Of a DNA stretch of 64,000 nucleotides, positions 22,026 to 38,872 are shown piece after piece. The stretch covers positions 248,001 to 312,000 of the forward strand of contig NZ_CP043026.1 of the NCBI RefSeq assembly GCF_008086545.1, read 5' to 3'. The notes below the pieces were generated by a model. That model saw nothing but the letters and a program-made list of their open reading frames with translations. It was not told the origin of the DNA and made no database searches. The translations under genes were made by a program, and so were the position numbers. Position 1 is the first letter of the stretch, and every line of letters begins with the position of its first letter. Source of the DNA: Spiroplasma chinense. Lineage in GTDB: Bacteria; Bacillota_I; Bacilli_A; Mycoplasmatales; Mycoplasmataceae.

Positions 22026-22927
22026 TGGTTAAATTTGATAGAGTAAAACCTAGAAAACATATGTTATTTGTTCCTGCAGATCGACCTTCACTTTATAGAG
22101 ATTCAGTCTTCTATAAACCAGACACAATTATGTTTGATTTAGAAGATGCTGTTGCATACTCAGAAAAAGATGCAGCAAGAATGTTATTAATAGAAATATT
22201 AAACGATATAGATTACAATGCAAGTGGAATTGAAACTTGTGTAAGAATTAATGGCTTAGATACTGAATTTTTTGAAAAAGATATTGAAGCTTGTATAAAA
22301 GCAAAAGCAAATATGATTAGGCTTCCAAAAGCAGAAACTGTTGATGATGTAAATCAACTAGTTGCTTTAATGGAAAAATATGAAAAAGAAAATAATTTAG
22401 ATTATAAACTAAAAATATTTATAGCCTTTGAAAGTGCTTTGGGTATATTGAATGCATTTGAAGTTGCCAAAGCAAGCGACAGAATTGTTGGTATTGCTCT
22501 TGGAGGAATGGACTACTTACTTGACTTAAAAGGGAGTAGATTGCCAAATCGTGAAGAATTATTATATGCTCGCCAACATTTAGTTCATGTTGGAAGAGCT
22601 TTAAAATTGGATGTATTTGACGTAGTTTATGGAAATACATCAGATGATCAAGGATTTATTAATGAATTCAAATTTATAAAATCACTTGGATTTGATGGTA
22701 AATCTGTAATTCACCCAAACCAAATTCGATTAATTAATGAAGTTTATAAACCAACACAAGAACAATTAGAATATGCTCTTGAAATGAAAGAAGCTTTTGA
22801 AGAAAGTGTAAAACTTGGAAAAGGTGTTTTCTTATTCAAAGGTAACATGGTAGATAAACCAGTTGTTGAAAAGCAACTTGAAATTATTGAATTAGCAAAA
22901 GAATTTGATATGGAGGGTGCTTTATAA
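22025..22927 (+). CDS. citE: Citrate lyase beta subunit (citryl-ACP lyase)
   Basis: A 300-residue HpcH/HpaI-fold protein that cleaves citryl-ACP to acetyl-ACP and oxaloacetate. Motifs are LFVPADRPSLY, TIMFDLEDAVAYSEKDAAR, VRINGLDT, IRLPKAE with the Mg2+-binding Glu in IFIAFESALGILNAF, and GIALGGMDYLLDL. The C-terminal GFDGKSVIHPNQI is typical. The start codon overlaps the citD stop and the stop overlaps the citF start, giving a fixed stoichiometry. It contains no Trp, hence no TGA. Confidence 0.95.
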   Translation: MVKFDRVKPRKHMLFVPADRPSLYRDSVFYKPDTIMFDLEDAVAYSEKDAARMLLIEILNDIDYNASGIETCVRINGLDTEFFEKDIEACIKAKANMIRLPKAETVDDVNQLVALMEKYEKENNLDYKLKIFIAFESALGILNAFEVAKASDRIVGIALGGMDYLLDLKGSRLPNREELLYARQHLVHVGRALKLDVFDVVYGNTSDDQGFINEFKFIKSLGFDGKSVIHPNQIRLINEVYKPTQEQLEYALEMKEAFEESVKLGKGVFLFKGNMVDKPVVEKQLEIIELAKEFDMEGAL

Positions 22928-24477
22928 TGGAAAAACCGATTTTAACAAAAGAGTATCTAGAAAAAAACTTTAAAAATACTGGAACTAATTTAGTTCCTTA
23001 TCAACCAAAAGAAGTTAGAACTTCAACATTTAGTTCTAATTTAAAAGAACTTCCTAACAAAGGAATTGTAAGAGATAAAGTTGTAGATCTTGAAACTGCT
23101 ATAAAGAATAGTGGACTTCAAAATGGTATGACAATTTCTTTCCATCACCATTTCAGAAATGGAGATAAAACAGTTAAAGTTGTAATGGAAGTTATTAAAA
23201 AACTTGGAATAAAAGATTTGACAGTTGCAAGTAGTAGTTTTACAGATGCACACAATTTTTTAGGACAATATATTAAAGATGGTTATGTAAAAGCTTTGCA
23301 ATCATCTGGTTGTAGAGATGAATTGGGTGAATTTATTTCTGCTGGTAATTGTGAAACGCCTTTAATAATTAGAAGTCACGGAGGAAGAGCAAGAGCTATT
23401 GAATCTGGTGATTTAAAAATTGATGTAGCTTTTATGGCAGCAAGTGCAAGTGATTGTATGGGTAATGCAAATGGTATGATGGGAAAATCTCGTTGTGGAA
23501 GTTTGGGTTATGCAATGGTTGATGCACAATATGCAAAAACAACAATCATATTAACTGATAACTTAGTAGAATATCCAAATAGTGTAATTTCAATTCCACA
23601 AAATCATGTGGATTATGTAGTTGAAGTTGATGAAATTGGTGATTCAAAAGGAATTATGAGTGGTGCTATTAGGTTAACCACTAATCCCAAAGAAGAAATA
23701 ATTGCAGAAAACATTACCAAAGTTATTGTTAACTCAAGTTTATTTAAAAATGATTTCTCAATTCAAATGGGAAGTGGAGGGGCTTCACTTTCGGCTGTAA
23801 AGTATTTAAAAAAACATATGATTGAAAAAGGTGTTGTTGCAAGTTATGCACTTGGAGGTATAACTTCACATCAAGTTTCAATGTATAAAGAAGGACTTGT
23901 TAAGAGAATTTTGGATACACAATGTTTTGATCTTGCAGCAGTAGAATCAATTTATGAAAATAATGATCATATAGAAATTTCTGCATCTATGTATGCAAAC
24001 CCTCATAACAAATCACCATTCGTAAACAATTTAGATTTTGTAATTTTAAGTGCATTAGAAGTTGACATAAACTTTAATGTAAATGTTATGACAGGTAGTG
24101 ATGGGGTAATTCGAGGAGCTTCAGGAGGACATTCAGATACAGCTGAAGCTGCAAAAATTTCAATAGTATGTTTACCGTTGATTCGAGGAAGAATGAGTTG
24201 TGTTGTTGATAAAGTAAACACAATTATTACTCCTGGAAATACAGTTGATGTTATTGTGACCGACTTTGGTATTGCGGTAAATCCTTTAAGAAAAGATTTA
24301 CTTGATGAATTTTCTAAAGCTGGAGTAAAATTAAAAAGTCTACAAGAAATGAGAGACTTTGCTGAAGGTATTGTTGGAAAAGCAAAACCTATAGAATGAG
24401 ATTATAATAGACCTGTTGCGATAGTTGAAGCAAGGGACGGGTCGGTATTAGATATCATTTATAAAAGAAAGGGATAA
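22927..24477 (+). CDS. citF: Citrate lyase alpha subunit (citrate-ACP transferase)
   Basis: A 516-residue CoA-transferase-fold protein that exchanges acetyl-ACP for citryl-ACP. Features include GIVRDKVVDLETAIKNSGLQ, TISFHHHFRNGDKTV, IIRSHGGRARAIESGDLKID, GNANGMMGKSRCGSLGYAM, and the C-terminal VTDFGIAVNPLRKDL. One TGA Trp near the end must be read through to reach the family C terminus (RDGSVLDIIY). Its ATG overlaps the citE stop and its TAA is next to the following start (TAATATG). It is part of the CitDEF complex. Confidence 0.95.
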
Positions 24478-24478
24478 T

Positions 24479-25609
24479 ATGTTAGAATTAATTTTAGCGG
24501 CAAGAGAAAAGAGAACACTACTCTTACAAAATAAACTGTCAAATTATGATTTTATTGTAACTTTCGGTTTAAATATCCCAGGTGATCAAAAGTTGGGTGC
24601 AGACAAAGAAGCGTTCATAAAAAAATATTTTTTTGAATATGTTTCTTTTATAAATAAAACATATGATTCTCTTAATTATGAAGCTGTAGTTGACTCAGCA
24701 GGTTACATGTACTATGTATGATTTAATGATGCTGATGCATACGAAGTGAAAAAATTATCGTTAAAATTTGAACAAAGAATTGGAGACGTTAGCTCTTTAA
24801 TTGATATTGATGTTTATTTAGACATAAATAATAAAATATCTAGACAAAACCTTGCAGGTTTTCCACGTAAATGTTTTATGTGTGATCAACCTGCAAAGGT
24901 TTGTGCTTTTAAACAAACTCATCCCTATGAAGAATTGGTAGCCTTTGCAAATAAAAAAATGTCTGAGGAAACCAGTTTTGTTTTGCCGCATGAATATATT
25001 TTTGATGACATTATAAATGAAATCTTAAAAGGAAATTATTTACCAGGAGATAGATTAAAAGAACTTGAACTTGTAAATATTTATAAAGTTAGTAGAACAA
25101 AAATTAGAGATGTATTAAAAGAATTAGAGAGTAGTGGCGTTGTAGTTACAAAAAAATCTATGGGAGCTGTTGTAAAAAAACTTACAACAGACGAAGTCAT
25201 GGAACTTACTAATTTAAGAATTAAAATAAAAGAAATTCTCTTTTTGGATGTTTTTGAAAACTTAAATAAGAATGGTTATTATATAGTTGAAAACATTAAA
25301 AGAAATTTAAAAAAAATGGATGTAAACAATTACGATCTTGTAAAAAAATGAAACACACAATTTTATGTAAGACTATTTTCTATATCTAATAAAGAATATA
25401 CTAAAAAAATATTTAAAGGATTAGAAATGGTTTTTGGTAATATAAATTACCAAATTAATAAAAAAATTCTAGAAGGTGGTTTTAATATGAGAGACTATCA
25501 TTTAAGAATATGTGATGCCATTATGGATGAAAATTTCGAAGACTATCAAAAAGTTTTATCTGATTATTTTGCAACATTGAAAGATTTAATTTTAAATCTT
25601 GATGAGTAA
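24479..25609 (+). CDS. CitX (holo-citrate lyase synthase) fused to a GntR-type transcriptional regulator
   Basis: A 376-residue two-part protein. Residues 1 to about 162 are CitX, which transfers phosphoribosyl-dephospho-CoA to apo-CitD: MLELILAAREKRTLLLQNKL, the core IDIDVYLDINNKISRQNLAG, and the cysteine-rich motif RKCFMCDQPAKVC...THPYEEL. From about 165 on it is a GntR regulator. The winged HTH reads IINEILKGNYLPGDRLKELE and VSRTKIRDVLKELESSGVV, and an all-helical ligand-binding domain follows (FCD-like). No stop or frame break separates the parts, and TGA codons are in frame as Trp. Normally these are two proteins (CitX and CitO). The regulator part probably binds the tandem operator at 19655. 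It overlaps citC by eight bases. Confidence 0.88.
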
Positions 25610-26636
25610 CTACGTTTTTGAAAAAATAAATTTAGACAGCAAAATATGAAAAAATAAAATTGAAAACTTTTTAGAAAAATTTAAATTAAAATACACAGAT
25701 GTAGATTTAACTATTGTTGTAACTGAAAACAACAGTATTGTTGCAGTGTGTAGTAAGAAAAATAATTTAATAAAAAATATAGCTATTGATGAAAAACATT
25801 GAGGTGAAAATATTTCAAACACTTTAATTACAATGGTAATGAAAGAAATATTTCAGCAAGGTTATGATAGTGCTATGGTTGTAACTAAAGTTGAAAATAA
25901 AAAAATATTTGCATCTTTAAACTTTAAGTTAATATATCAAAACGAAAGAATTTCATTTTTAAGTTCTAATGATAAAGATTATTTAAGTTATAAAGAAATG
26001 ATACAAAATTTAGATTATAAAAATAAAACTGCATTTATTATTTTAAATGCAAATCCATTTACATTAGGTCATGAACATTTAGTTGAAACTGCAAGTAAGG
26101 AAAATGATATTGTATATTTAATTCCGGTATTGGAAGACATTTCGTTTTTTTCAACTGACGAAAGAACTGAAATTATATTAAAAAACATTACTAAGTTTAG
26201 TAATGTTGAGTTGCTTAAAGGAACACAATATTTAATTTCAAATAATTTATTTCCAAGTTACTTTCTAAAATCAACAGAAGAAAGTATAAAAGAGCAATCT
26301 CAATTAGACGCAAATATATTTTGTGATTTAATAGGAAAAAATTTTTCTAAAGTAACAAGATACGTTGGTGAAGAACCTTATTCAAAAACTACAGAGATTT
26401 ATAATAATATAATCAAAGAAGAATTAAATCAAAGAAATATAAAACTAAAAATAATAAAAAGGTTAGAAAAAAACAATGTAGCAGTAAGTGCTTCAATTGT
26501 TAGAGAGTGTATTTTTAAAAATGATTTGGAGACAATAAAAAAAATGGTTTCTAAAGAAACCTTTGAAATAATCTCTCAAGAGAAATATTATAAAAGAGCT
26601 TTAGAAAATCCAAACAAAATATTTAAGAATAATTAA
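25602..26636 (+). CDS. citC: [Citrate (pro-3S)-lyase] ligase
   Basis: A 344-residue protein that acetylates the prosthetic group on CitD with ATP and acetate, activating the lyase. A GNAT-like N-terminal part (IAIDEKHWGENISNTLI) occupies about residues 1-130. The nucleotidyltransferase domain follows, with FIILNANPFTLGHEHLVETA (TLGH is the HxGH-type motif) and a C-terminal VSASIVREC motif. The start ATG overlaps the end of the CitX-GntR gene by eight bases (GATGAGTAA), so the two are translationally coupled. Its 3' end overlaps the convergent citG by 14 bases. Two TGA Trp codons occur in the first third. Confidence 0.93.
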
Positions 26637-27402
26637 TTAGATCTAGAAAAATAACTAGAACTAAAATATCTGCACAACCACCTGGAGAAATATTGTTATT
26701 TATTGCTTGTTGATTTATTTCGAGTATTTCTTCAAATGTTAATTCGTTGTTAATTAACTGATTTTCAACTTTGATATAGCTTTGTTTGATTTCTAGTCAA
26801 TTTTCAAAACCAATTTTATTTATCAAAGTTGTGTCGTCTAAATTAATTGTGAGATGTATTAGTGTTGTAAAAAGTTTTATGTTTTCATCTTTAATATTTA
26901 ATTTCTTGTAAAACATATAGGTTTCAAAAACAATTTTGTAACCTTCAATTGCATAATCAATTGCATGTTTTAAATTATATTTCTCTACCATAGAATTTGA
27001 TTTGGATACAGGTCTTGGAATTCTTGAAAGTTCTTTACAAAATTGTAATAGATAAGTTTCAAAATCTAAAGAAAGCATTTTTGATTTTTTAAAACAAAAA
27101 TAAAAAATGCCGCAACAAAATATTAATCCTTTATGAGTATTTATATCCTTAGTCTTTTTAAACATAATTTGTTCGTATTTAAAACCAATTTGTTTTAATT
27201 GATTAAAAGTATTTATTGATTCTAAATTATTATCAATTTCCTTAAAATATGGAATGAAAGCTTTATAACTTTTTTGAAAAGTTTTAAAGTTCATATCTTT
27301 ATGAGAACCTGAATTCTTTTTACTAACTAAACCTAGTGAGGGAAAGAAACTATATTCAGTTTTAATGGCTCTTAACATTAAAGAACTATATAAATTTCTC
27401 AT
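26623..27402 (-). CDS. citG: Triphosphoribosyl-dephospho-CoA synthase
   Basis: A 259-residue protein making the precursor of the citrate lyase prosthetic group from dephospho-CoA and ATP. Family motifs are LRAIKTEYSFFPSLGLVSKK NSGSH near the start, NTHKGLIFCCG, and the C-terminal NNNISPGGCADILV after a TGA Trp. The Ser-Gly-Ser-His and Pro-Gly-Gly motifs are intact. AAGAGGTG precedes the ATG. It lies on the opposite strand from the rest of the locus: tail-to-tail with citC (14-base overlap) and head-to-head with the aldolase gene, with only 49 bases between starts. That space has no TTGTATACAA site, so it may not be controlled like the main operon. Confidence 0.88.
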
Positions 27403-27451
27403 AAAACACCTCTTAATATATACATTATATAACAGAAAGGAATTTAAAATT
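27403..27451. promoter_or_regulatory. Divergent promoter region between citG and the aldolase gene
   Basis: These 49 AT-rich bases must hold both promoters. ATATATAC and ATTATATAAC resemble -10 boxes in either direction, and the ribosome sites AGAGGTG (minus) and GAAAGGAA (plus) flank them. I see no copy of the palindrome found at 19655. Confidence 0.4.
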
Positions 27452-28087
27452 ATGAGTGAGATACAAAAACATATTGAAAAGTTAGAGAAGCATAAAATTT
27501 CTACAATAATTAGAACTGATGATTTTGATCATGCATACAATATTGTTAAAGCTTCAAATGAAGCGGGAATAAAGTTTGTCGAGATTACTCTAACAATACC
27601 AAATGCACTAGAATTAATTAAAAAATGTAGTATTGATTTCCCAGAACTAAGTGTGGGGGCAGGAACTGTGATTACAATGGAAGATGCTAAAAATTCTTTA
27701 GAGTATGGTGCAGAATATTTGGTTTCACCAATAGCTATACCAGAAGTTGTTGAATGAGCAAAAGAACAAGATGTATTGTGCATTGCTGGAGCTTTAACTC
27801 CAACTGAAATGCATACACTTTGAAAAGCGGGTGCTGATTTAATCAAGTTTTATCCAGCAACTTCAATGCCATTAGATTACATTAAATTAATTCATAATCC
27901 TATGCCAGAATACAAATTCTTGGCAACTGGAGGTATTGATTATAACAATATTTTAGATTATATAAATGCAGGTTGTATTGCTGCAGGAGTTACAGCAGAT
28001 TTAGGTGGAGCTGCAAAAACAGTTTCTTATGAAGAACTTGTAACTATTGCCAAAAAATATGTTGAAAAAGTAAATTCAATAAAATAA
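27452..28087 (+). CDS. eda: KDPG/KHG aldolase family protein, possible oxaloacetate decarboxylase
   Basis: A 211-residue class I aldolase. The catalytic Glu44 lies in FVEITLTIP, the GAGTVITMEDA motif follows, and the Schiff-base Lys132 lies in DLIKFYPAT, as in E. coli Eda. The C-terminal LGGAAKTVSYEELV fits. The start at 27452 has GAAAGGAATT upstream. Eda enzymes are known to decarboxylate oxaloacetate as a side activity. The Entner-Doudoroff pathway is not expected in mollicutes, and no partner gene for it is here. In this position the enzyme may convert the oxaloacetate released by citrate lyase to pyruvate; that role is inferred from context. Confidence 0.85.
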
Positions 28088-29098: not shown

Positions 29099-29127
29099 TT
29101 TAACTAAGCAATATAAAATGCTATAAT
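29099..29127 (+). promoter_or_regulatory. Promoter of the helicase operon (TTTAAC-17-TATAAT)
   Basis: TTTAAC at 29099-29104 and a perfect TATAAT at 29122-29127 are spaced by 17 bases. This is the only clear promoter before the five-gene operon; the gaps inside are 12 bases or less. Confidence 0.55.
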
Positions 29128-29154
29128 TAAAGGTAATTGATGGGGGAACTAAAT

Positions 29155-32100
29155 ATGGGTAATATTATTGAAAACAATGGCACAAAAGAACTCTTTTTGG
29201 ATTTTTCTTATCTTCAAAATGTAATGTTCAAAGACAATATAGCTCAATTAGACCAAATAGTTGAAAGACTGGACATTGAAGGTATTAATACATACCAAGA
29301 ATTTCAAAATTTCTTAAGATCTTCAATGGTTAAACAATGTTTTATCTGTTTAATTGATGATAAAACAAGAAAAGTAGGAAAAAAAGATACTAAACAAATT
29401 TACGATGCTATTGTTAGGTTAGAGATGAATTCAATAAGTCAATCAAAGTTTCCAAAAGATACTTATTTAGGGCTATTTGTAAATATAAATCCACAAACCC
29501 CATACCTAACTATTAATTCAATTTTTGAAACAAGGTTAAAACCCAGTCCTCAAGAATTTGAAACTACCATAAAAGAAACTCAAATTCAGGTTATTAAATA
29601 CCAAAATCAAATGACTCCTGACGAAATATTAAGAAGAAGTATCTTAAACTCTTCAAACATATCACAACTTGGTAAACTGGTTTCTTCTTTTGAAGAAGAA
29701 AAAACCAAGTGATTGAATTATTTAGACTTTTCATCAGATTTATTAAATATACAAAGAAAAAATAGTCTACCATTTCTTGGTTGTTTTATAGAACAGGTTA
29801 TAAAAGTTGAAAAGAAAAACTTTAATTCAGCTTTGTCTAATAAAATTCAAAGTGAATATAGTTCAAGAAATGATGTTTATTTAGAATTATCGGCAGAGCC
29901 AATTTTAAAAGGAAATGGTGAAGTCTATGAAAAGGTAAATATTATAACTTTGGATGTTTTAACTGATAATGTAAAAAAAGTTGAAAGAATTAGAAAAACT
30001 AATGATTTATCAATAATACCTTTTAGATTAAACAAAATATTTCCGCCAGTTTATAATCTGCAAAAAAACCCAGCAGAAATTTTTGATTTTGAATTCGAGA
30101 AAGTACAAGACAGCAGTAGCATTGTTCCACTTTCAAATTTGGTAGGTATAAAAAATGGACAAGAAAGTTTGATTGATTATTGACAAAAAGCTGGACATAT
30201 AATTTTTGGTACACAAAAAGAAATGTTAGAAATAGAAAAGAACTTTTCTAAGGAATTTAGTGAATGAAAAGTTTTAAAACTTCAATATGAAATGTCTTTA
30301 GATATAGACTTAGATCTATTTAAAATTAAAAATAATATTGATTATTTATCAAGTGGATATTTAGCTTATGTTGGTATTGGAGAAGATGTTTTAATTGATA
30401 GAAGTAGACAAGTTTTAAAAAGAATAAGTGAAGGAAATACCAAAAACCCTTATTTGATAAATTATCTTTTTAATACAAAACTTATTGAACTTTCAGAAAG
30501 TGCAAACGAAGTTGAAATTAGTGATGATCAATTTAACTATAGTTTAAATTTTGAGCAAAAAGAAGCTGTTAGAAAAGCTTTAAATTCAAAAGATATTTTT
30601 TTACTGCAAGGTCCACCAGGAACAGGTAAAACACAAGTTATTTGTGAAATTATTTATCAGTTAAGTAAGTTAAATAGAAAAGTTTTAATCTCAAGTCAAA
30701 ACCATGAAGCTATAAAAAATGTAGTTGATAGACTTCCTTATGAACCAAACGTTAATAGAATTAGATTAACAAATCAAATAAATGCAAAGAGTAAAAGTGC
30801 AAATAATTTTTCTCCTGAAAGAGTGGTTTATAATTACTATAAATCAATTGCAAAATCAATGTATGATGACATGATGGTAAGTCAAAATACTTTAGATGAG
30901 TTTAAAGAAATTGAAAGTAAACTTGAAAAATTGATTTTAAGTAATAAAGGTTACCACCAAAATAATAATCAAGTTAGAGAAATACAAAAACAAATTGATT
31001 CAATTAATGATCGAATTAAAGAATTAAGATTAAGTGAATTAAGTTCTATTGGTCTAAAAAATGAATTAAAAGAAGAACTTATAAATATAGAAAATTTAAT
31101 TTCAGTTTTAAAAGATTTAGATTTCAAAATTGCAATAAGTGTTTCTGAAAAAATTAAAAAAGTTTATGAACAAGAAATTAAATTTGAATTAGATCAATTT
31201 GTTTTTAAAAACTCAATTGAATTAGAAGATGAAGGAAACATTTTTTCTGTGCTTCAAAAAGTTGCGCAAGAAATTTTATTTAGTGATGAAGTTTATGCAG
31301 ATATTCAAACCGCAAAAGTTAGAGCTGTAGAGTTTAGAAGAAATGCAGAATTTGATTTAGCTCAACAAGAAGATGAAAGAATAGTAATGTTAGAAAAAAT
31401 ATTACTAAAAAATGAATCTGCAAATGAACTATTAAATATTTTTTCAACATTTTCAAAAAGACTTGATGATTTAAAAGTTGAATTAACTTTAAATCTTGAA
31501 AAAAGTAATGTTGTAGATAACGAAGTTGAATTAAATAGATTAGAAATTGAAAAAAATGAATTACAAGTTACAAAACAAAAACTAACTGAAGTTGTTGGAA
31601 GTGCAAGTGGAGAGTTAAGAGAATTAATTAAATATGCAAACTCTAAATTTAATTTATCACTTGGTGTTACTGACGTAGATTTAGAAGAACAAGTTAAGGC
31701 AGAGTTAAAAAAATACAGCACTAAACTTGAAGAGAGCAAATCAAAAAATGATGAATTAAAATACCTTTACGAAAATGTAAGTGAATATTTGAAAGACAGT
31801 TATGGTATTACAAATAATTGAAATGAAGAAATTGCAACTAAGAATTTTACAAATCAAATGATGCAAGAATCAAAAAGATATGCTTCATCAATTATTAATA
31901 ATTTAGTTAATGTGTATGCTATGACTTTAACTTCATCAAACTTATTTAGATATAACAAAGATGACTATGCAAAAAAACTTGGTTTAGATGAAATTAACCT
32001 AAGAACTATGGATGTAGATGTTGTGATAATTGATGAAGCTTCTAAAGCTACACTATTAGAAATTTTAATGCCTTTAGTTTATGGAAAGACATTAATTTTG

Positions 32101-32997
32101 GTTGGTGATTACAGACAACTACCTCCAATTTTAAAATTACAACCAAGTGACGTTGATACAGTTAATGAATTAACTGGTAAAAATTATAATTACCAACAAT
32201 TATTTGAACTATTAGATCAATCTGCATTTAAAACATTAGTTGGTGCTAAAAATAAATCAGTAACAACAATGTTGAAAACACAATACAGAAGTCACGGACA
32301 AATAATGGATATAGTTAATAAATTTTATGATAATGAATTAAAAGTTGAACCGCAAGTAAGTGAGCAAAAAAGACATGACCTAATTGTTAAAACAAAAAAT
32401 GGAAGTGACTTTATTGGACCTCACAGTTCAGTTTATTGAATAGATTCTTCTAATGATGAAAACGATCAATTAAGTTTTGAACAGAGCGAAGAATATTCAA
32501 CAAGTTTATTTAATGATTTAGAAATAAAATTAACTTTAGAAACATTAAAAAATATAGATAAAAGTTTAGAAGGTAAAACTTTTGCTAACAAACCAACCCT
32601 TGCAGTAATTAGTTTTTATGGATTACATGTAAATAAATTAAAAAAAGAAGTTAGAAGAAATAATTATAAAAACTTTGAACTTATTGTAAACACTGTTGAT
32701 GATTTCCAAGGTAAAGAAGCTGACTATGTTATTGTAAACTTGGTTAGAAATCCTGAAAAACTTTCGTCAAGAAGTGGTAGAGAGTTCTTAAAGAAATACG
32801 AAAGAATAAATGTTGCTTTCAGTAGAGCAAGAGAGTTACTTGTAATAATTGGAGCACAAAGAGCTGTTAATGATATTACAGTTCAAATACCAACTGTAGA
32901 AGATCCAAATGTTTCAAACACATATGAAGTTTATGCAGATATAATTGCAAAAATTGATTTTGATCATGGATTTAAAACAGCAAAAGAAATTTTATAG
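29155..32997 (+). CDS. Very large superfamily 1 helicase (Upf1/DNA2-like), first gene of a five-gene operon
   Basis: A 1280-residue protein. Residues 1 to about 460 are an N-terminal region with no recognised motif. SF1 motifs then follow: Walker A GPPGTGKT at about 486, then after a coiled-coil-rich insertion of some 400 residues the Walker B VVIIDEAS near 960, GDYRQLPPI (motif III) near 984, QYRSHGQI (motif IV), DDFQGKEADYVIV (motif V) near 1182 and NVAFSRARELLVIIG (motif VI) near 1223. It should be an ATP-dependent RNA or DNA translocase. The start at 29155 has GGGGGA at the right spacing. Five in-frame TGA codons are Trp. The large insertion between motifs I and II is typical of Upf1-like enzymes in conflict and repair systems. 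The partner genes follow at once. Confidence 0.88.
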
Positions 32998-33009
32998 GAG
33001 GAAATAAAA

Positions 33010-35280
33010 ATGATATTTGATAAAATTGAAATTCTTTATGAAAAGTTTTGTTTACCAGTAAAAATTAAATATTCTGAAACTAGAAAACCTACGTTTATGG
33101 AATTTTTAATTTTATCAATCATTTTAGAATACCCCAATAGAAATAAATCAATTAGAAAAATTTTAAACGAAGACTTTAAAATTTTAAATGTTGAATTATT
33201 TGAAAGAGCTTTAAAAGATTTAATTAATTTTAAAATTATTGAACTTAAAAAAACTCAAGCAGGTTGAAGTACTTTAGGAATTGATTTAGCAATTGATAAA
33301 ATTGAAATTAATGAATTACTAAAAGAACAATTTATAAAAAAAGAATTTGTTATTTCTCAAATGGATAAAAATTTAGATGTGAACTGAATTTACGATCCTG
33401 TAATGGAAGGTTATGAACTTTCAAGAGAACAAGAATGAAATAAAAGATTAAATGGTGTTAAACTTTCACATAAATTAAACTTTGTAAAACCAGGAGATAA
33501 ATTTTATTCTGAAAAAGATATAACAAATAATGCAAGTAATTTTGTAAATGCTAAACCCGAATATTTTGGAGATAATGCAATGTTAACTCGAGTAGAATTA
33601 AATAAAGAAATTGGTTTGGAAGATTTAAATTTAGCAAAACAATTAACTAATACTAAACCTTGTGCTAATGAAGCGTTTTTAGAATTTTTTGAAAATGATA
33701 CTTTTAAATTAAGAACAGATAATATTTTCTTAGAAAATTATTTTAGAAAAAACCCAAACGTTTCTAAAGATATTGCAATAGATGTTGCAAACAAATATTC
33801 TGAAAAAATAAAAGAACGTTTTGTACCAAAAAGAAATTTCAACTCATTAGATAAATTCCAAAAAGAACCAGATTTAATTTCAAACATTAATGTTAGATCA
33901 AGTTGAAATTTACTTTTAATAAATGGACAAGATATTACGTCAACAAACAAAATGTTAAAAAATAAAGATTTAATATCAAATGTTAAAATTATTATTTTTT
34001 ATAATTCAAAATCTAATGATAAAACTATTGAAGTGGTTGACGATAAAATTGTAGCTTATCTTGAAAGTTCGGGACACGAAATTTTAAGAGATAACTCATT
34101 GATTTATTTAGATTCAGAAAATAATGCAACTGGTTTTTCAATCGTAGATAAACACATACCTACAATCAATCAATTTATTCCAGTTGTATACGCTTATAAA
34201 AATAAAGGTAAAGTTAGAATTGAAGAATTGTTTGAAGATAATTTGGTTAGATTATTTGAAAATTACGAAAACGAATTATTTGAAGGAAGATTACAAACTT
34301 CAACAATAATGTTAAATCTTTTAAAACGTATTGGTTTAGAACAAAAACTTTACCAAGTGCTTTATGATTATTTAGCAAGAGAAATAGATGACCAAAGCTC
34401 ATTTGAAAAACTAAACGACTTTTTAGTGGAAAGCGACAACTTAGAAGGAAGTGTCTTTCTAGAAAAATGTTTGAAGGATGTTTTAATTAACGCTTCTCAA
34501 ACAAGAGATTCAGAAGCTATGATGTTGTTGTTAGAAAAATACAAATTTAAAAGTACTTCAACATTATTTGAAATGTTGAACAATATAAAATTAGATAATG
34601 ATATTAACTTTATATTTAGAATCAATTCATTATTAGATGAAAGAAAAATTGATGGATGAAAAGTCAATGTAAGAAATTGTTTGGTTAAAGTATTGGAATA
34701 TGCAAAAGATAATTTGAGATCAGAGTTACTTTCTTTAGATAAATATCGTTCGACTGTTTGAAAAGAACATGCAGCTACAATAAACAAAATTGGAAATATA
34801 ACAAAAGAACTTTACAATAAAAATTTTGAAGTTGTAGAAAAAAATTATCAAGACATGTTAATTTCAGTTATTGATTTAATTAAATCTAATAATGAAATAC
34901 AAGATTATAAAAATTATTTATGATACTTATCAGAAACTTTAGTAGATTTCTATTCTAATTATTATGAGTATAAAATAAATGAAATGCAAAACTCAGACTC
35001 AAACTTAGTTGAATACAAAATTCAATTGGTAGCAGGAAATGCGATTAACAAAATTGAAGAAAAACTTGATTCTATAATTGATGTTAAGGCAAGAAAATTG
35101 CCAATAGAATTAAAACTTGAATGAGCAAAACATGTTGAAAATAAAAGAGATCTTGTTAATGAGATAATTAAAAAAGATGACAGTCTTTTATACTTGGCTT
35201 TAAATTTAGTGTTTGGTAAAAAAGATGATTTCAACGCAGAGAACTTGCAACGTTATCAAGATAAATTGGGAGGATTATAA
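33010..35280 (+). CDS. Unknown 756-residue protein with winged-helix-like N terminus
   Basis: I do not recognise this family. Residues about 20-85 (FMEFLILSIILEYPNRNKSI, then LFERALKDLINFKIIEL) look like a winged helix. A middle region contains SSWNLLLINGQDI and a mixed alpha/beta stretch VKIIIFYNSKSNDKTIEVVD near residues 310-400, with GFSIVDKHIPTINQFIPVVY. The last 300 residues are helical, with many Leu, Asn and Lys. TGA Trp codons interrupt it in the standard code. GGAGG lies before the ATG, twelve bases after the helicase stop, so it belongs to the same operon. It may be a DNA-contacting or scaffold subunit; this is inference from the fold-like N terminus. Confidence 0.8.
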
Positions 35281-35282
35281 TT

Positions 35283-36374
35283 ATGAGTATGTCAGCAGAA
35301 GAAATTTTGCTTAATTGCAAAAAACAATTTGATTTTATAAAAACAGATATAAATGTTTTGCTCGCATATATTCAAGAAATGATTTTACATTGTAGAGAAA
35401 TCGATAATTCTGGATATTATGAAGAACAATTAAAACAATTAGAAAAAAGAGTTAAAGATGAAATTGAAGATTTAAAATATGCAGATCAATATGCAAAAGA
35501 AGTTGAAGGACAAGTTCATGTAGCAACCGAACGTTATCATGAAATTCAAAGATTTGCAGAACGTAAAAGAGAAATGATTGCAGATTTTAAAACTGAAGTT
35601 TTTATGTTAAAAAAAGATGTTGTAAAAAAAGAACAAGAAGCAATTGCAAAAAAACTTAGTGAGTCTATGTTTTCAAGTTTTGAAGAAATGGTTAACGAGT
35701 TTGTGTCTTTACAAGACACTTTAGATGATAAGGTTTTGGTAAAAAACTATTTTGATAAATATGAAGCAGTGTTAAGAAATAAATCTAAAGAAGAAATTAT
35801 TGAAGAGTTAAAAAATCACTTAACAAGCGAAAAAGAATCATTCAAGTTTATTGCAAAACAAATGATAAACTCATCAATACAACTTTATGATCAAGACCAA
35901 GATGTTGTTAATGCCATTAAAGAAGATGCAAAAGATTTTTTACAAAATTCAAATGAACAAAATATTTTTGAAGATGCTAAAAAATTCTTTGTAAATTCTT
36001 CAAGAAATGCAGAAAATGAAGCAATAAGAAAAGATAATGTTATAAAGATTGTTAAAGCAATTCGTGATGTAGGTTATATTGTAAATGAAAACAATATTAG
36101 AAAAATTGAAGAAAAAAATTTAATTCTAATTCACGGAGAAAAAGTTACTGGTGAATCAGCTGACTTTGCTGTAAGATTAGATGGAAGTTTTATTTATAAT
36201 TATGAAGGGTTCGAGGGAAAAGAACATGATGCTGATGCTGATGCTTTCTTACAAAAATTGAGAGAGCAAGGTATTCAATCACAAGATGCCTTCAACAAAC
36301 AATACAGAGAACCAAAATATATTGCAAAAAATCAACAGTCATTAGTTAATAAAAAAACAAAATCAGATAAGTAG
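35283..36374 (+). CDS. Coiled-coil protein with a conserved-looking C-terminal domain
   Basis: A 363-residue protein without Trp. Residues 1 to about 150 form long charged helices (YYEEQLKQLEKRVKDEIEDL, ERYHEIQRFAERKREMIADF). A helical middle follows. The C-terminal 100 residues form a compact alpha/beta-like domain: VKAIRDVGYIVNENNIRKIE, ILIHGEKVTGESADFAVRLD, GSFIYNYEGFEGKEHDADAD. The ATG lies two bases after the previous stop, with its GGGAGG ribosome site inside the previous gene. The short spacing and unknown partners suggest a structural subunit of the same complex. No family name assigned. Confidence 0.78.
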   Translation: MSMSAEEILLNCKKQFDFIKTDINVLLAYIQEMILHCREIDNSGYYEEQLKQLEKRVKDEIEDLKYADQYAKEVEGQVHVATERYHEIQRFAERKREMIADFKTEVFMLKKDVVKKEQEAIAKKLSESMFSSFEEMVNEFVSLQDTLDDKVLVKNYFDKYEAVLRNKSKEEIIEELKNHLTSEKESFKFIAKQMINSSIQLYDQDQDVVNAIKEDAKDFLQNSNEQNIFEDAKKFFVNSSRNAENEAIRKDNVIKIVKAIRDVGYIVNENNIRKIEEKNLILIHGEKVTGESADFAVRLDGSFIYNYEGFEGKEHDADADAFLQKLREQGIQSQDAFNKQYREPKYIAKNQQSLVNKKTKSDK

Positions 36375-36382
36375 GTGCAAAT

Positions 36383-38197
36383 ATGAGTGTAAAAAGAGAA
36401 TTAAGTCAATTACAAAATTTAATAGGAATTAAAAAAGCAATCGTTATTGAAGGTAATGTTGATGATATTTATGAACTTGAAGGTAAGTATGTTAATTTAC
36501 ATGAATACTTAATGAAAATTTTTGATAACAAAAAATATACAGACAGATTCTTATACGACAGAAATTCAGGTATAAGAGGACAAAAAATTAGTAATTTAAT
36601 TTTGACAAGTGATGATAAAAAAGCTAATGGTGAAAGTGTTGCAGATGATTTCGATGAATTATTTGGGAATCAAAGTGGTTCAACTTCAACAGGAGAAGAA
36701 TCAACACAAATAAAAAAACCAATAGAGTTTTTTGCTGTTTTAAATAAAAATTTAAATAGAGATGATAATCGTAAAATTGGTTTTGTAGCTGATTATACAA
36801 ACTTTGTATTTAGTGATCAAGGTTTAGATATTGATGACAGATCTGTTTTAACAGAGTTTTCAAAAACTTTAAAGGAATCTAAATTTATGATTTCAAATAT
36901 TGATGAATTATCAAACTGTGTAATTTTTGTTACTAAAAAAATTAATCAATTACCTCCAAGTCTTTATTTGGATAATCCAGATATGTTAATTGTGACTCTA
37001 CCAAAACCAAGTAGAGATGAAAGACACGAATTTTTAGCAACAGTTAAATCGAGAATTCAAGTTACAGATATTGGAACTGAATTTGAAAATATAGTTGATG
37101 CAACAGATTCGTGAACAATTAAAGAACTGTCTCACTTTGTTAAGTTCTCATGTAATTTTAATCAACCAACACCATTTAATAAAATGTTAAACATTTATAA
37201 ATATGGAGAAAAAACTTCTCCATGAGAAGATTTAAGTTACGACAAAATGATAAACATTAAAGAAGAGTTGAAAAAAAGAGTTATAGGACAAGATGATGCA
37301 ATTGAAAAAGTTTCAAAAGTAATTTATAAAGCTTATACAGGTCTTACTGGAATTACTTACTCTGCAAAAAGAAGTAAACCCAAAGGTACATTATTTTTTG
37401 TAGGACCAACAGGTACTGGTAAAACAGAACTTGCAAAAGCAATAACTTCTTTCTTATTTAATGATGAAGCAAATTTAATAAGATTTGATATGTCTGAATA
37501 TGGACAAGATAATTCTGACCAAAAACTAATAGGAGCGCCTCCTGGTTATGTTGGTTTTGAAGGTGGGGGACAACTTACAAATGCAGTTAAGGAAAAACCA
37601 TTTTCAGTAATCTTGTTCGATGAAATCGAAAAAGCTAGTCCAAAAATATTTGATAAGTTTTTACAAATTCTTGAAGATGGAAGACTTACAGACAACACGG
37701 GACAAACAATTAGTTTTAGTGAAAGTTTTATAATCTTTACATCAAATATTGGAGCGGCTGAAGTTTCTCCTAATCAAGATAAAGATGCTATTTATAAAGA
37801 ATTTATCAGCAAAGTTCAGCAACACTTTACTTATGAATTAAATAGACCTGAACTATTGGGAAGATTTGGAAATAACATTGTGCCTTTCAACTTTATTAAA
37901 GACAATTCTCTTAAAGCTGGAATTATTAAACAAAAAGTTAGACCAATTCAAATTGCAATTTATGAAAAATATAAAGCAGAATTACATATAGATCTTGCAA
38001 ATGATTCTATTATTTCTATTCTACTTCAAGATGCAGATGAAAGAAGAGGGGGACGTGATGTTTTAAACTCACTTGAAACTAATTTAGTTGACCCTCTATC
38101 AGAATTTGTATTTGAAAATTTACAAAACTTAAAACCAGGAACAAAAATATCTGTTCAACCAAGTGATAAAAAATTAGTCTTTTCTTTAAATGTCTAA
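36383..38197 (+). CDS. ClpB-like AAA+ ATPase with degenerate first module
   Basis: A 604-residue protein. Residues 1 to about 280 look like an AAA+-related module beginning IKKAIVIEGNVDDIYELEGK. It keeps NVDD-type and sensor-like stretches (FMISNIDELSNCVIFVTKKI, DMLIVTLPKPSRDE) but shows no Walker A. The second module is a standard Clp/HSP100 D2: VIGQDDAIEKVSKVIYKAY, Walker A GPTGTGKTELAKAI near 341, FDMSEYGQ, GAPPGYVGFEGGGQL pore loop, Walker B VILFDEIEKA near 413, FTSNIGA, and a C-terminal small domain with RGGRDVLNSLE. It lacks the N-terminal substrate domain and the ClpB middle coiled coil. It probably remodels a protein or nucleoprotein partner encoded in the operon. Its end overlaps the next gene by eight bases. 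Confidence 0.87.
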
Positions 38198-38786
38198 TAT
38201 AAATGTTGCCAAATTTTTAATGAACAGTGAAATTGAAGGCCCTGGAACAAGATTTGTAATTTGATTTCAAGGTTGTAATATAAACTGTAATGGATGTTCA
38301 AACCAAGAGTTAATACCTCTAGAACCTAAATATTTTATTCCTACATCTTTATTATTTGAAAAAATACTTGAAGCTAAAGAAGAATTTTGTATTGAAGGTG
38401 TTACATTACTGGGTGGAGAACCTTTTTTACAACCAGATGCATTATTAGAATTAACAAATTTTTGTAAAGCAAATGACTTGACTGTCATTTGCTTTACGGG
38501 ATATATTTATGAAAAGCTAAATCTAGAATATCAAAATATACTATCAAATATTGATATTCTAATTGATGGACCTTTTTTGATAAAGCAATTAGATTATAAA
38601 CGTAGGTTAATTGGTAGTAAAAATCAAAGAGTTATCAAATTAACTGAGTTTTATAAAGATTGTGATTACTTTGAAAAACCCCATTCAGAAATTGAAATAC
38701 AATTGTATAACAACAGACTTTCAATGAATGGTGATGGTGTAGTTTTTGATAATGAATTTGGTGAATTTAAATTTAAAATTAATTAA
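38190..38786 (+). CDS. Compact radical-SAM / 4Fe-4S single-cluster protein (NrdG/PFL-activase-like)
   Basis: A 198-residue protein with the cluster motif Cys29-x3-Cys33-x2-Cys36 (CNINCNGC), preceded by EIEGPGTRFVIWFQG. It has the SAM-binding LLGGEPFLQPDAL motif and a central strand-helix pattern (VICFTGYIYEKL, IDILIDGPFL). These match the anaerobic ribonucleotide reductase activase group, yet no glycyl-radical enzyme is encoded here. The ATG lies inside the end of the AAA+ gene (AAATGTCTAA), so it is translationally coupled. A TGA Trp sits just before the cluster motif. In this operon it probably modifies a partner or a nucleic acid; the target is unknown. Confidence 0.85.
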
Positions 38787-38808
38787 TTCCTTTTAAGGAA
38801 TTTTTTCT
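38785..38808 (+). terminator. Terminator of the helicase-AAA+-radical SAM operon
   Basis: AATTCCTT-TT-AAGGAATT followed by TTTTC, overlapping the last stop codon. Confidence 0.75.
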
Positions 38809-38872
38809 TTTAACTCTGAATATAGTGCCAATTCAAGTTATAATAAAAATTGTATTATTTTTTAGAAAATGA

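Follow-up and report, generated by a model that had tools for sequence, protein, structure and literature searches.

A conserved five-gene helicase, ClpB-like ATPase, and radical-SAM operon of Spiroplasma chinense with likeness to RNA-targeting defence modules

A 64,000-nucleotide stretch of the Spiroplasma chinense genome (contig NZ_CP043026.1, positions 248,001 to 312,000; hereafter the window) was analysed for an operon that an initial annotation, made from the sequence alone, had marked at positions 29155-38786. Five open reading frames (ORFs) were found there head to tail on the + strand, with intergenic gaps of 12, 2, 8, and -8 bases, and the layout given in the annotation was thereby confirmed. 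The ORFs are open under genetic code 4, in which TGA encodes tryptophan; under code 11, all five were interrupted at TGA. The products were assigned as a helicase (gene 1), an adaptor or effector (gene 2), a coiled-coil scaffold (gene 3), a ClpB-like AAA+ protein (gene 4), and a radical S-adenosylmethionine (SAM) protein (gene 5). The five genes form a conserved system rather than a cluster brought together by chance, and their domain content suggests an undescribed variant of the known modules for RNA-targeting defence. All features of the operon described below lie on the + strand.

Gene 1 (29155-32997) encodes a UPF1/IGHMBP2-like superfamily 1 (SF1) helicase of 1280 residues, which resembles MkoA and CnuH. 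The start was placed at the ATG at 29155, with GGGGGAA just ahead, and the TTG at 29137 was an artefact of the first-start rule. The protein matched Pfam AAA_11/AAA_12 and TIGR00376 (8.7e-58). The best match in PADLOC was MkoA (4.8e-95), for which the PADLOC library sets no cut-off. The SF1 motifs, i.e., GPPGTGKT at residue 486 (Walker A, 30610-30633), DEAS at 960, GDYRQLPP at 984, and QYRS at 1043, were complete, as first read. The gene was homologous across 39 loci, with 82 alignment columns at least 95% identical and the pattern G..GTGK kept in 39/39 relatives. An insert follows the first RecA-like motifs (30787-31899); it was measured at about 370 residues, where the initial annotation had given 400. 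It contains 0% proline and 2% glycine and is probably a helical or coiled-coil region. The insert is fast-evolving, showing a mean identity of 0.47 vs. 0.77 and 0.73 in the flanking core.

Gene 2 (33010-35280) encodes a CnuE/MkoB-like adaptor or effector of 756 residues, the effector part of which varies by lineage. Its AlphaFold2 model (predicted local distance difference test score 89) was composed of a winged-helix-like start, a mixed middle, and an all-helical half (residues 412-756). The winged-helix-like N terminus that had been read from the sequence (33010-33399) appeared in the model as a beta hairpin and three helices, and this region recurs in the Proteobacterial members. The C-terminal helical domain (34243-35277) occupies the slot of PIN effectors in Proteobacteria and HEPN-like effectors in Bacilli. 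The effector is thus swapped between lineages. In Proteobacteria, this part was an intact PIN domain in 5/5 proteins, matching PIN_4 down to 7e-24 with the acidic catalytic residues present. In Bacilli, it matched DUF4145 or a HEPN family, and RNx3H was found in 6/6. The family profile matches comprised PIN_4 in five members and DUF4145 in four. In conflict systems, it is typical for nuclease domains to be swapped while their carrier stays constant. By hhalign, the mollicute gene 2 was aligned with that of Bacilli (96.5%, 7e-10), and one Proteobacterial gene 2 matched residues 6-189 of MkoB at 1.1e-5.

A phospholipase D (PLD) fold was considered for gene 2 and rejected. The similarity to Tdp1 (Z 5.5-5.9) was within noise, residues 282-411 giving Z 5.9 and a root-mean-square deviation of 4.1 over 106 aligned residues, and the HKD motif was absent; HxKx4D was found in none of the gene 2 proteins scanned in all lineages. 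The search with MkoB across the phylum matched general PLD proteins and was uninformative. Foldseek gave no match of gene 2 in PDB and BFVD at E <= 0.001.

Gene 3 (35283-36374) encodes a helical or coiled-coil scaffold of 363 residues with a conserved C-terminal domain (36018-36317). The long coiled coils noticed earlier fit a model that is largely helical, to which a beta-rich C-terminal domain has to be added. The alignment with gene 3 of Bacilli and Proteobacteria by hhalign was strong over the C-terminal 127 columns (99.4%, 2e-21), and the conserved residues of this part were E246, R249, G264, G290, F295, G301, Y305, D318, and P344. The domain is DUF2997-like by a weak match, but this assignment was not upheld because E was 0.05-0.17, in relatives. 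Foldseek showed no match of gene 3 in PDB at E <= 0.001. The gene was not found in phages, viral contigs, or Escherichia coli genomes, the last of which were searched at the DNA level only.

Gene 4 (36383-38197) encodes an AAA+ protein of 604 residues, composed of an N-terminal half that matches no family and one complete ClpB/ClpC-type second module. The Clp-type module proposed in the initial annotation was recovered in full, with matches to AAA_2 (1.5e-50), ClpB (2e-77), and Clp D2 structures. Walker A, Walker B, the GYVG pore, and the arginine and sensor motifs are kept, and the GYVG pore motif and Walker B were each found in 40/41 relatives. A ClpB disaggregase has two active AAA+ modules, whereas gene 4 matches the second only (261 vs. 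1232 bits). No PF00574 match, i.e., no ClpP, was detected in the genome, and a ClpP-dependent unfoldase is therefore not indicated; threading without degradation seems likelier for gene 4.

Gene 5 (38190-38786) encodes a radical-SAM protein of 198 residues in the class of glycyl-radical-enzyme activases. It matched Fer4_12 (3.7e-32) as well as NrdG and pyruvate formate-lyase (PFL) activase profiles. The CxxxCxxC motif pointed out at first reading (C29, C33, and C36) was present in 39/39 relatives, and the radical-SAM core was intact. In two genomes of another genus of the family, genus g5, the protein has 368 residues with a C-terminal extension of about 170 residues (L170 6338-7444 and L171 6038-7144). 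PLuB and prokaryotic viperin were tried as relatives and rejected, with weak general profile matches only, and the literature search for PLuB gave nothing relevant.

The initial annotation had left it to be checked whether the five families co-occur in other genomes and whether their presence varies among relatives. The five genes are co-inherited, and one order was found across phyla. Outside the genus of the window, where the operon is fixed and gene 2 was present in 20/20 genomes, gene 2 was also found in several genera of the family. Gene 3 was counted in 20/20 genomes of the genus of the window, in 9/10 of genus g5, and in 3/3, 1/1, and 1/1 of other genera, and it was not found in the smallest-genome genera of the family. 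The order 1-2-3-4-5 was seen in 24/26 of the mollicute neighbourhoods read in detail. In the 25th (L132), the gene order is the same and gene 2 is too diverged to pass the script threshold. The 26th (L121 in G150), of the same genus, is a decayed copy in which genes 1, 2, and 5 are broken and genes 3 and 4 are open. The gaps between genes were near-constant among relatives, above all the 8-base gap ahead of gene 4. Within the genus, the mean identities of genes 1 to 5 were 0.60, 0.445, 0.54, 0.78, and 0.745, gene 2 being the fastest-evolving, and that of leucyl-tRNA synthetase (LeuRS) was 0.80. The divergence of the five genes was correlated, in step. The operon lies after leuS (805 residues) in many of the relatives; in the window, about 10 kb with a citrate lyase region intervenes.

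By searching with gene 3 profiles, six further complete or near-complete loci were found in other families, most of which belong to Bacilli but not to the mollicute order. These loci are ordered as helicase, protein of about 720 residues, gene 3, gene 4, and gene 5. One of them (L165) belongs to the mollicute order itself and likewise reads TGA as tryptophan, and in L164 gene 5 is split in two fragments. A seventh extra locus (L167) had no matched helicase within the stretch read. The operon is also carried on plasmids. In tblastn of gene 4 against plasmids, the identical order was found in Acinetobacter, Photobacterium, Moellerella, Polaromonas, and Leisingera, the genes being annotated as AAA helicase, PIN-domain protein, protein of about 370 residues, AAA family ATPase, and 4Fe-4S protein. 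In each of the plasmid records with gene 3, the helicase and gene 4 were present as well (10/10), and 7/10 were predicted to be conjugative. ArdA and integrase genes were found near the Moellerella copy. Profile-profile comparison with the Proteobacterial proteins gave 2e-85 for gene 1, 4e-47 for gene 5, and 2e-145 for gene 4. Genes 1, 3, 4, and 5 are clear homologues across all lineages examined.

Two side observations were made at these loci. A protein of 178-180 residues with a weak HTH_22 match, a possible regulator, immediately precedes the helicase in L164 (1990-2526) and L165 (1971-2513). In Mesomycoplasma hyorhinis NCTC10121 (L182, about 4-11.3 kb), fragments of AAA-domain and ClpB-like genes were found, separated by small hypothetical ORFs; they may be what is left of the five-gene operon in a genome outside the family.

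The variable gene 2 carries a predicted RNA-cutting domain in relatives, and the operon is therefore likened to RNA-targeting defence modules. On balance, we lean to domestication of a mobile RNA-targeting module in the genus of the window, the module being a five-protein machine in which a CnuHE/Mokosh-type pair is joined to the products of genes 3-5. In Proteobacteria and other Bacilli, the set would behave like a mobile defence-type system. A role in defence is suggested by carriage on plasmids, by the swapped effectors, and by a distribution that is sparse beyond the mollicutes. Defence-type neighbours in Bacilli point the same way: a macro domain of Thoeris ThsA (3.6e-34) in L164 and a type IV restriction enzyme, GmrSD (1.2e-20), in L168. 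In the genus of the window, a standing nucleic-acid or ribonucleoprotein surveillance function is probable, and the presence in 20/20 genomes at a conserved site argues for domestication.

Several points weigh against the domesticated defence module. Universal presence at one site in a genus is unusual for defence systems. In the motif scan, the mollicute gene 2 had neither RNx3H nor HKD nor any recognised nuclease motif, and its link with the Proteobacterial gene 2 is modest (hhalign 72.7%, 3e-5), limited to the N-terminal 218 columns. The defence-type matches in Bacilli came from a scan of ten neighbours with no base rate behind them. The step correlation of divergence mostly reflects shared descent, and the pair of genes 4 and 5, which also occurs with a different set of genes in Clostridia (below), may serve a more general task.

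The main rival is housekeeping quality control of RNA and protein, in which the helicase and effector would clear stalled or damaged RNA, the ClpB-like protein would clear associated proteins, and invaders would play no part. The same fixation in 20/20 genomes fits this explanation, together with the vertical descent beside leuS in relatives, the conservation of genes 4 and 5, which is strong and close to that of LeuRS, and the loss confined to genera of the family with small genomes and to 1/10 in genus g5. However, it does not agree with the carriage on plasmids that share little identity, with nuclease domains that can be exchanged, with the scarcity of the set beyond the mollicutes, or with the defence-type genes next to two Bacilli loci, and we regard it as rather unlikely. 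An ordinary core-genome locus with a known role was the outcome that the initial annotation had named as fatal to its proposal; the operon does belong to the core genome of the genus, but no known role was found for it.

The initial annotation knew no named system with this set. The whole set was not described in PADLOC, NCBIfam, or the open-access literature searched, and no description of the trio of genes 3-5 attached to a CnuHE/Mokosh-type pair was found in this literature. However, genes 1 and 2 appear to fit a described layout, that of CnuH and CnuE (PMC11090510). In CoCoNuT type II/III and relatives, CnuH is a UPF1-like SF1 helicase with a large helical insert after Walker A, and CnuE is a winged-helix protein with an exchangeable C-terminal effector, i.e., HEPN with RxxxxH, PLD, or others (PMC11090510). 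Gene 1 has the same helicase type with the helical insert at the same place. Gene 2 may correspond to CnuE, judged by the layout of its model and by its PIN or HEPN relatives and not by CnuE sequence, and the mollicute copy carries no recognised nuclease motif. In contrast, the CnuB/McrB GTPase and CnuC/McrC coiled-coil nuclease families were not detected in genes 2, 3, and 5, and gene 4 is Clp-type. TerY-P is likewise absent, and the operon instead has coiled-coil, ClpB-like, and radical-SAM proteins. Clp, ClpB, radical SAM, and NrdG are not mentioned in the main text of the CoCoNuT paper (PMC11090510). Mokosh uses a PLD nuclease (table in PMC10952713). Gene 1 corresponds to the MkoA-type helicase of Mokosh type I by the PADLOC match of 4.8e-95, but the gene 2 proteins differ from the MkoB PLD nuclease in having no HKD, and five genes stand against two.

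The operon is therefore not CoCoNuT, because McrB/McrC-type genes are absent, and not Mokosh, because the PLD motif is absent. That it is one of these systems proper with accessory genes is improbable: the MkoA-like helicase, the MkoB-like N terminus in one relative, and the CnuH/CnuE-like layout agree with it, but three additional genes accompany the pair in every lineage. The initial annotation had pointed to Upf1-like helicases as recurrent in genome-conflict systems, and the types of genes 1 and 2 do belong to nucleic-acid conflict modules.

Genes 4 and 5 have family members side by side in a Clostridial operon (L054 and L064) of DUF4011 helicase, kinase, coiled coil, FHA, radical SAM, ClpB-like, PP2C, and DUF4236 genes. 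The gene 4 proteins share about 37% identity, whereas the helicase is ProA/Hhe-type, the order is 5-4, and phospho-signalling parts, i.e., Ser/Thr kinase, FHA, and PP2C phosphatase, are included. Because the pair is found in this operon too, conflict-type helicases are considered to be accompanied repeatedly by the Clp/radical-SAM pair. By eye, gene 3 had seemed homologous to the coiled coil of the Clostridial operon, but this was dropped because profile alignment gave a probability of 1.5-5%. In more than 40 Clostridial loci (L028-L104), a ClpB-like gene is followed by an L054-type DUF4236 gene, and the rest of the operon is absent from the stretch read there. A ClpB-like AAA+ module is also common to gene 4, Dodola DolB, and the candidate PDC-M37B (PADLOC 1e-23 and 1e-34), but the match is largely the common Clp module, and no further shared component was detected.

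With NrdG and PFL activases, gene 5 has the CxxxCxxC radical-SAM core and a GGEP motif in common, but no glycyl-radical enzyme adjoins it. It also stays under the TIGR02491 equivalog cut-off for NrdG, the activase of class III ribonucleotide reductase (95.6 vs. 126.1 bits). The initial annotation had called the glycyl-radical enzyme absent, which is right for the window but not for the genome. NrdD was found at 999135-1001156 with its own NrdG adjoining at 998656-999087, and a PFL-like glycyl-radical gene lies at about 1200131-1200588, also with its own activase adjoining. Since both enzymes have their own activases, gene 5 remains as a third protein of the activase type, with no partner assigned to it. 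It is highly improbable that gene 5 is a spare activase for either enzyme and the operon two unrelated functions: its profile matches and the presence of both enzymes would allow it, but the adjoining activases, the NrdG score below cut-off, and the position of gene 5 after gene 4 in Bacilli and Proteobacteria too do not. The PFL-like gene, outside the window, is composed of two short open frames of 96 and 214 residues and is perhaps a broken gene.

For the domesticated RNA-targeting module, the following working is proposed. The helicase would load on foreign or aberrant RNA, or single-stranded DNA, and translocate with ATP. Its long helical insert may grip the gene 2 protein via the winged-helix region, and the C-terminal domain of gene 2 would act as the effector, for which an RNase (PIN or HEPN) is predicted in relatives. 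Between the helicase/gene 2 pair and a hexameric gene 4 unfoldase, the gene 3 protein would form a bridge, and the unfoldase would thread and remodel a protein partner instead of degrading it. Gene 5 may modify a partner by radical chemistry, which would arm or limit the complex. A bolder version is more doubtful, i.e., a new surveillance class in which the activase-type radical-SAM protein arms or licenses a partner that the ClpB-like motor resets or releases; this class would be mobile in Proteobacteria and permanently domesticated in Spiroplasma, with the RNase effector replaced there by a new helical domain.

The five genes are a fixed set that spans two phyla or more and has one clearly variable slot, that of the effector. 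In this set, a motor of the Clp type and a radical-SAM protein of the activase type are tied to the UPF1-like helicase/effector theme of RNA surveillance and phage defence, a link that is new relative to the literature searched. The plasmid copies in Gammaproteobacteria make the system open to testing in E. coli, and the fixation in a reduced-genome genus would be a case of a defence-type module that has become core machinery.

One promoter and one terminator had been assigned to the operon; the promoter motif is well placed, and taken singly neither signal stands out statistically. The candidate extended -10 promoter (29100-29127, TTAACT-16-TGcTATAAT) lies 28 bases before the ATG of gene 1, but promoter-type matches in the region (77 vs. 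69 +/- 9 in shuffles) were not in excess over chance. The candidate terminator (38787-38814), AATTCCT-TTTA-AGGAATT followed by a T tract, was recognised by eye; it was absent from the terminator scan output because it has too few G-C pairs. Within the coding sequence of gene 5, a perfect 14-bp inverted repeat, GTAAAGCAAATGAC / GTCATTTGCTTTAC, with a 6-base loop was found at 38464-38497. It occurs once in the window and is a possible regulatory hairpin. Just upstream of the operon, the citrate lyase region (22927-28087) encodes citF, a CitX-GntR fusion, citC, citG (minus strand), and KDPG/KHG aldolase.

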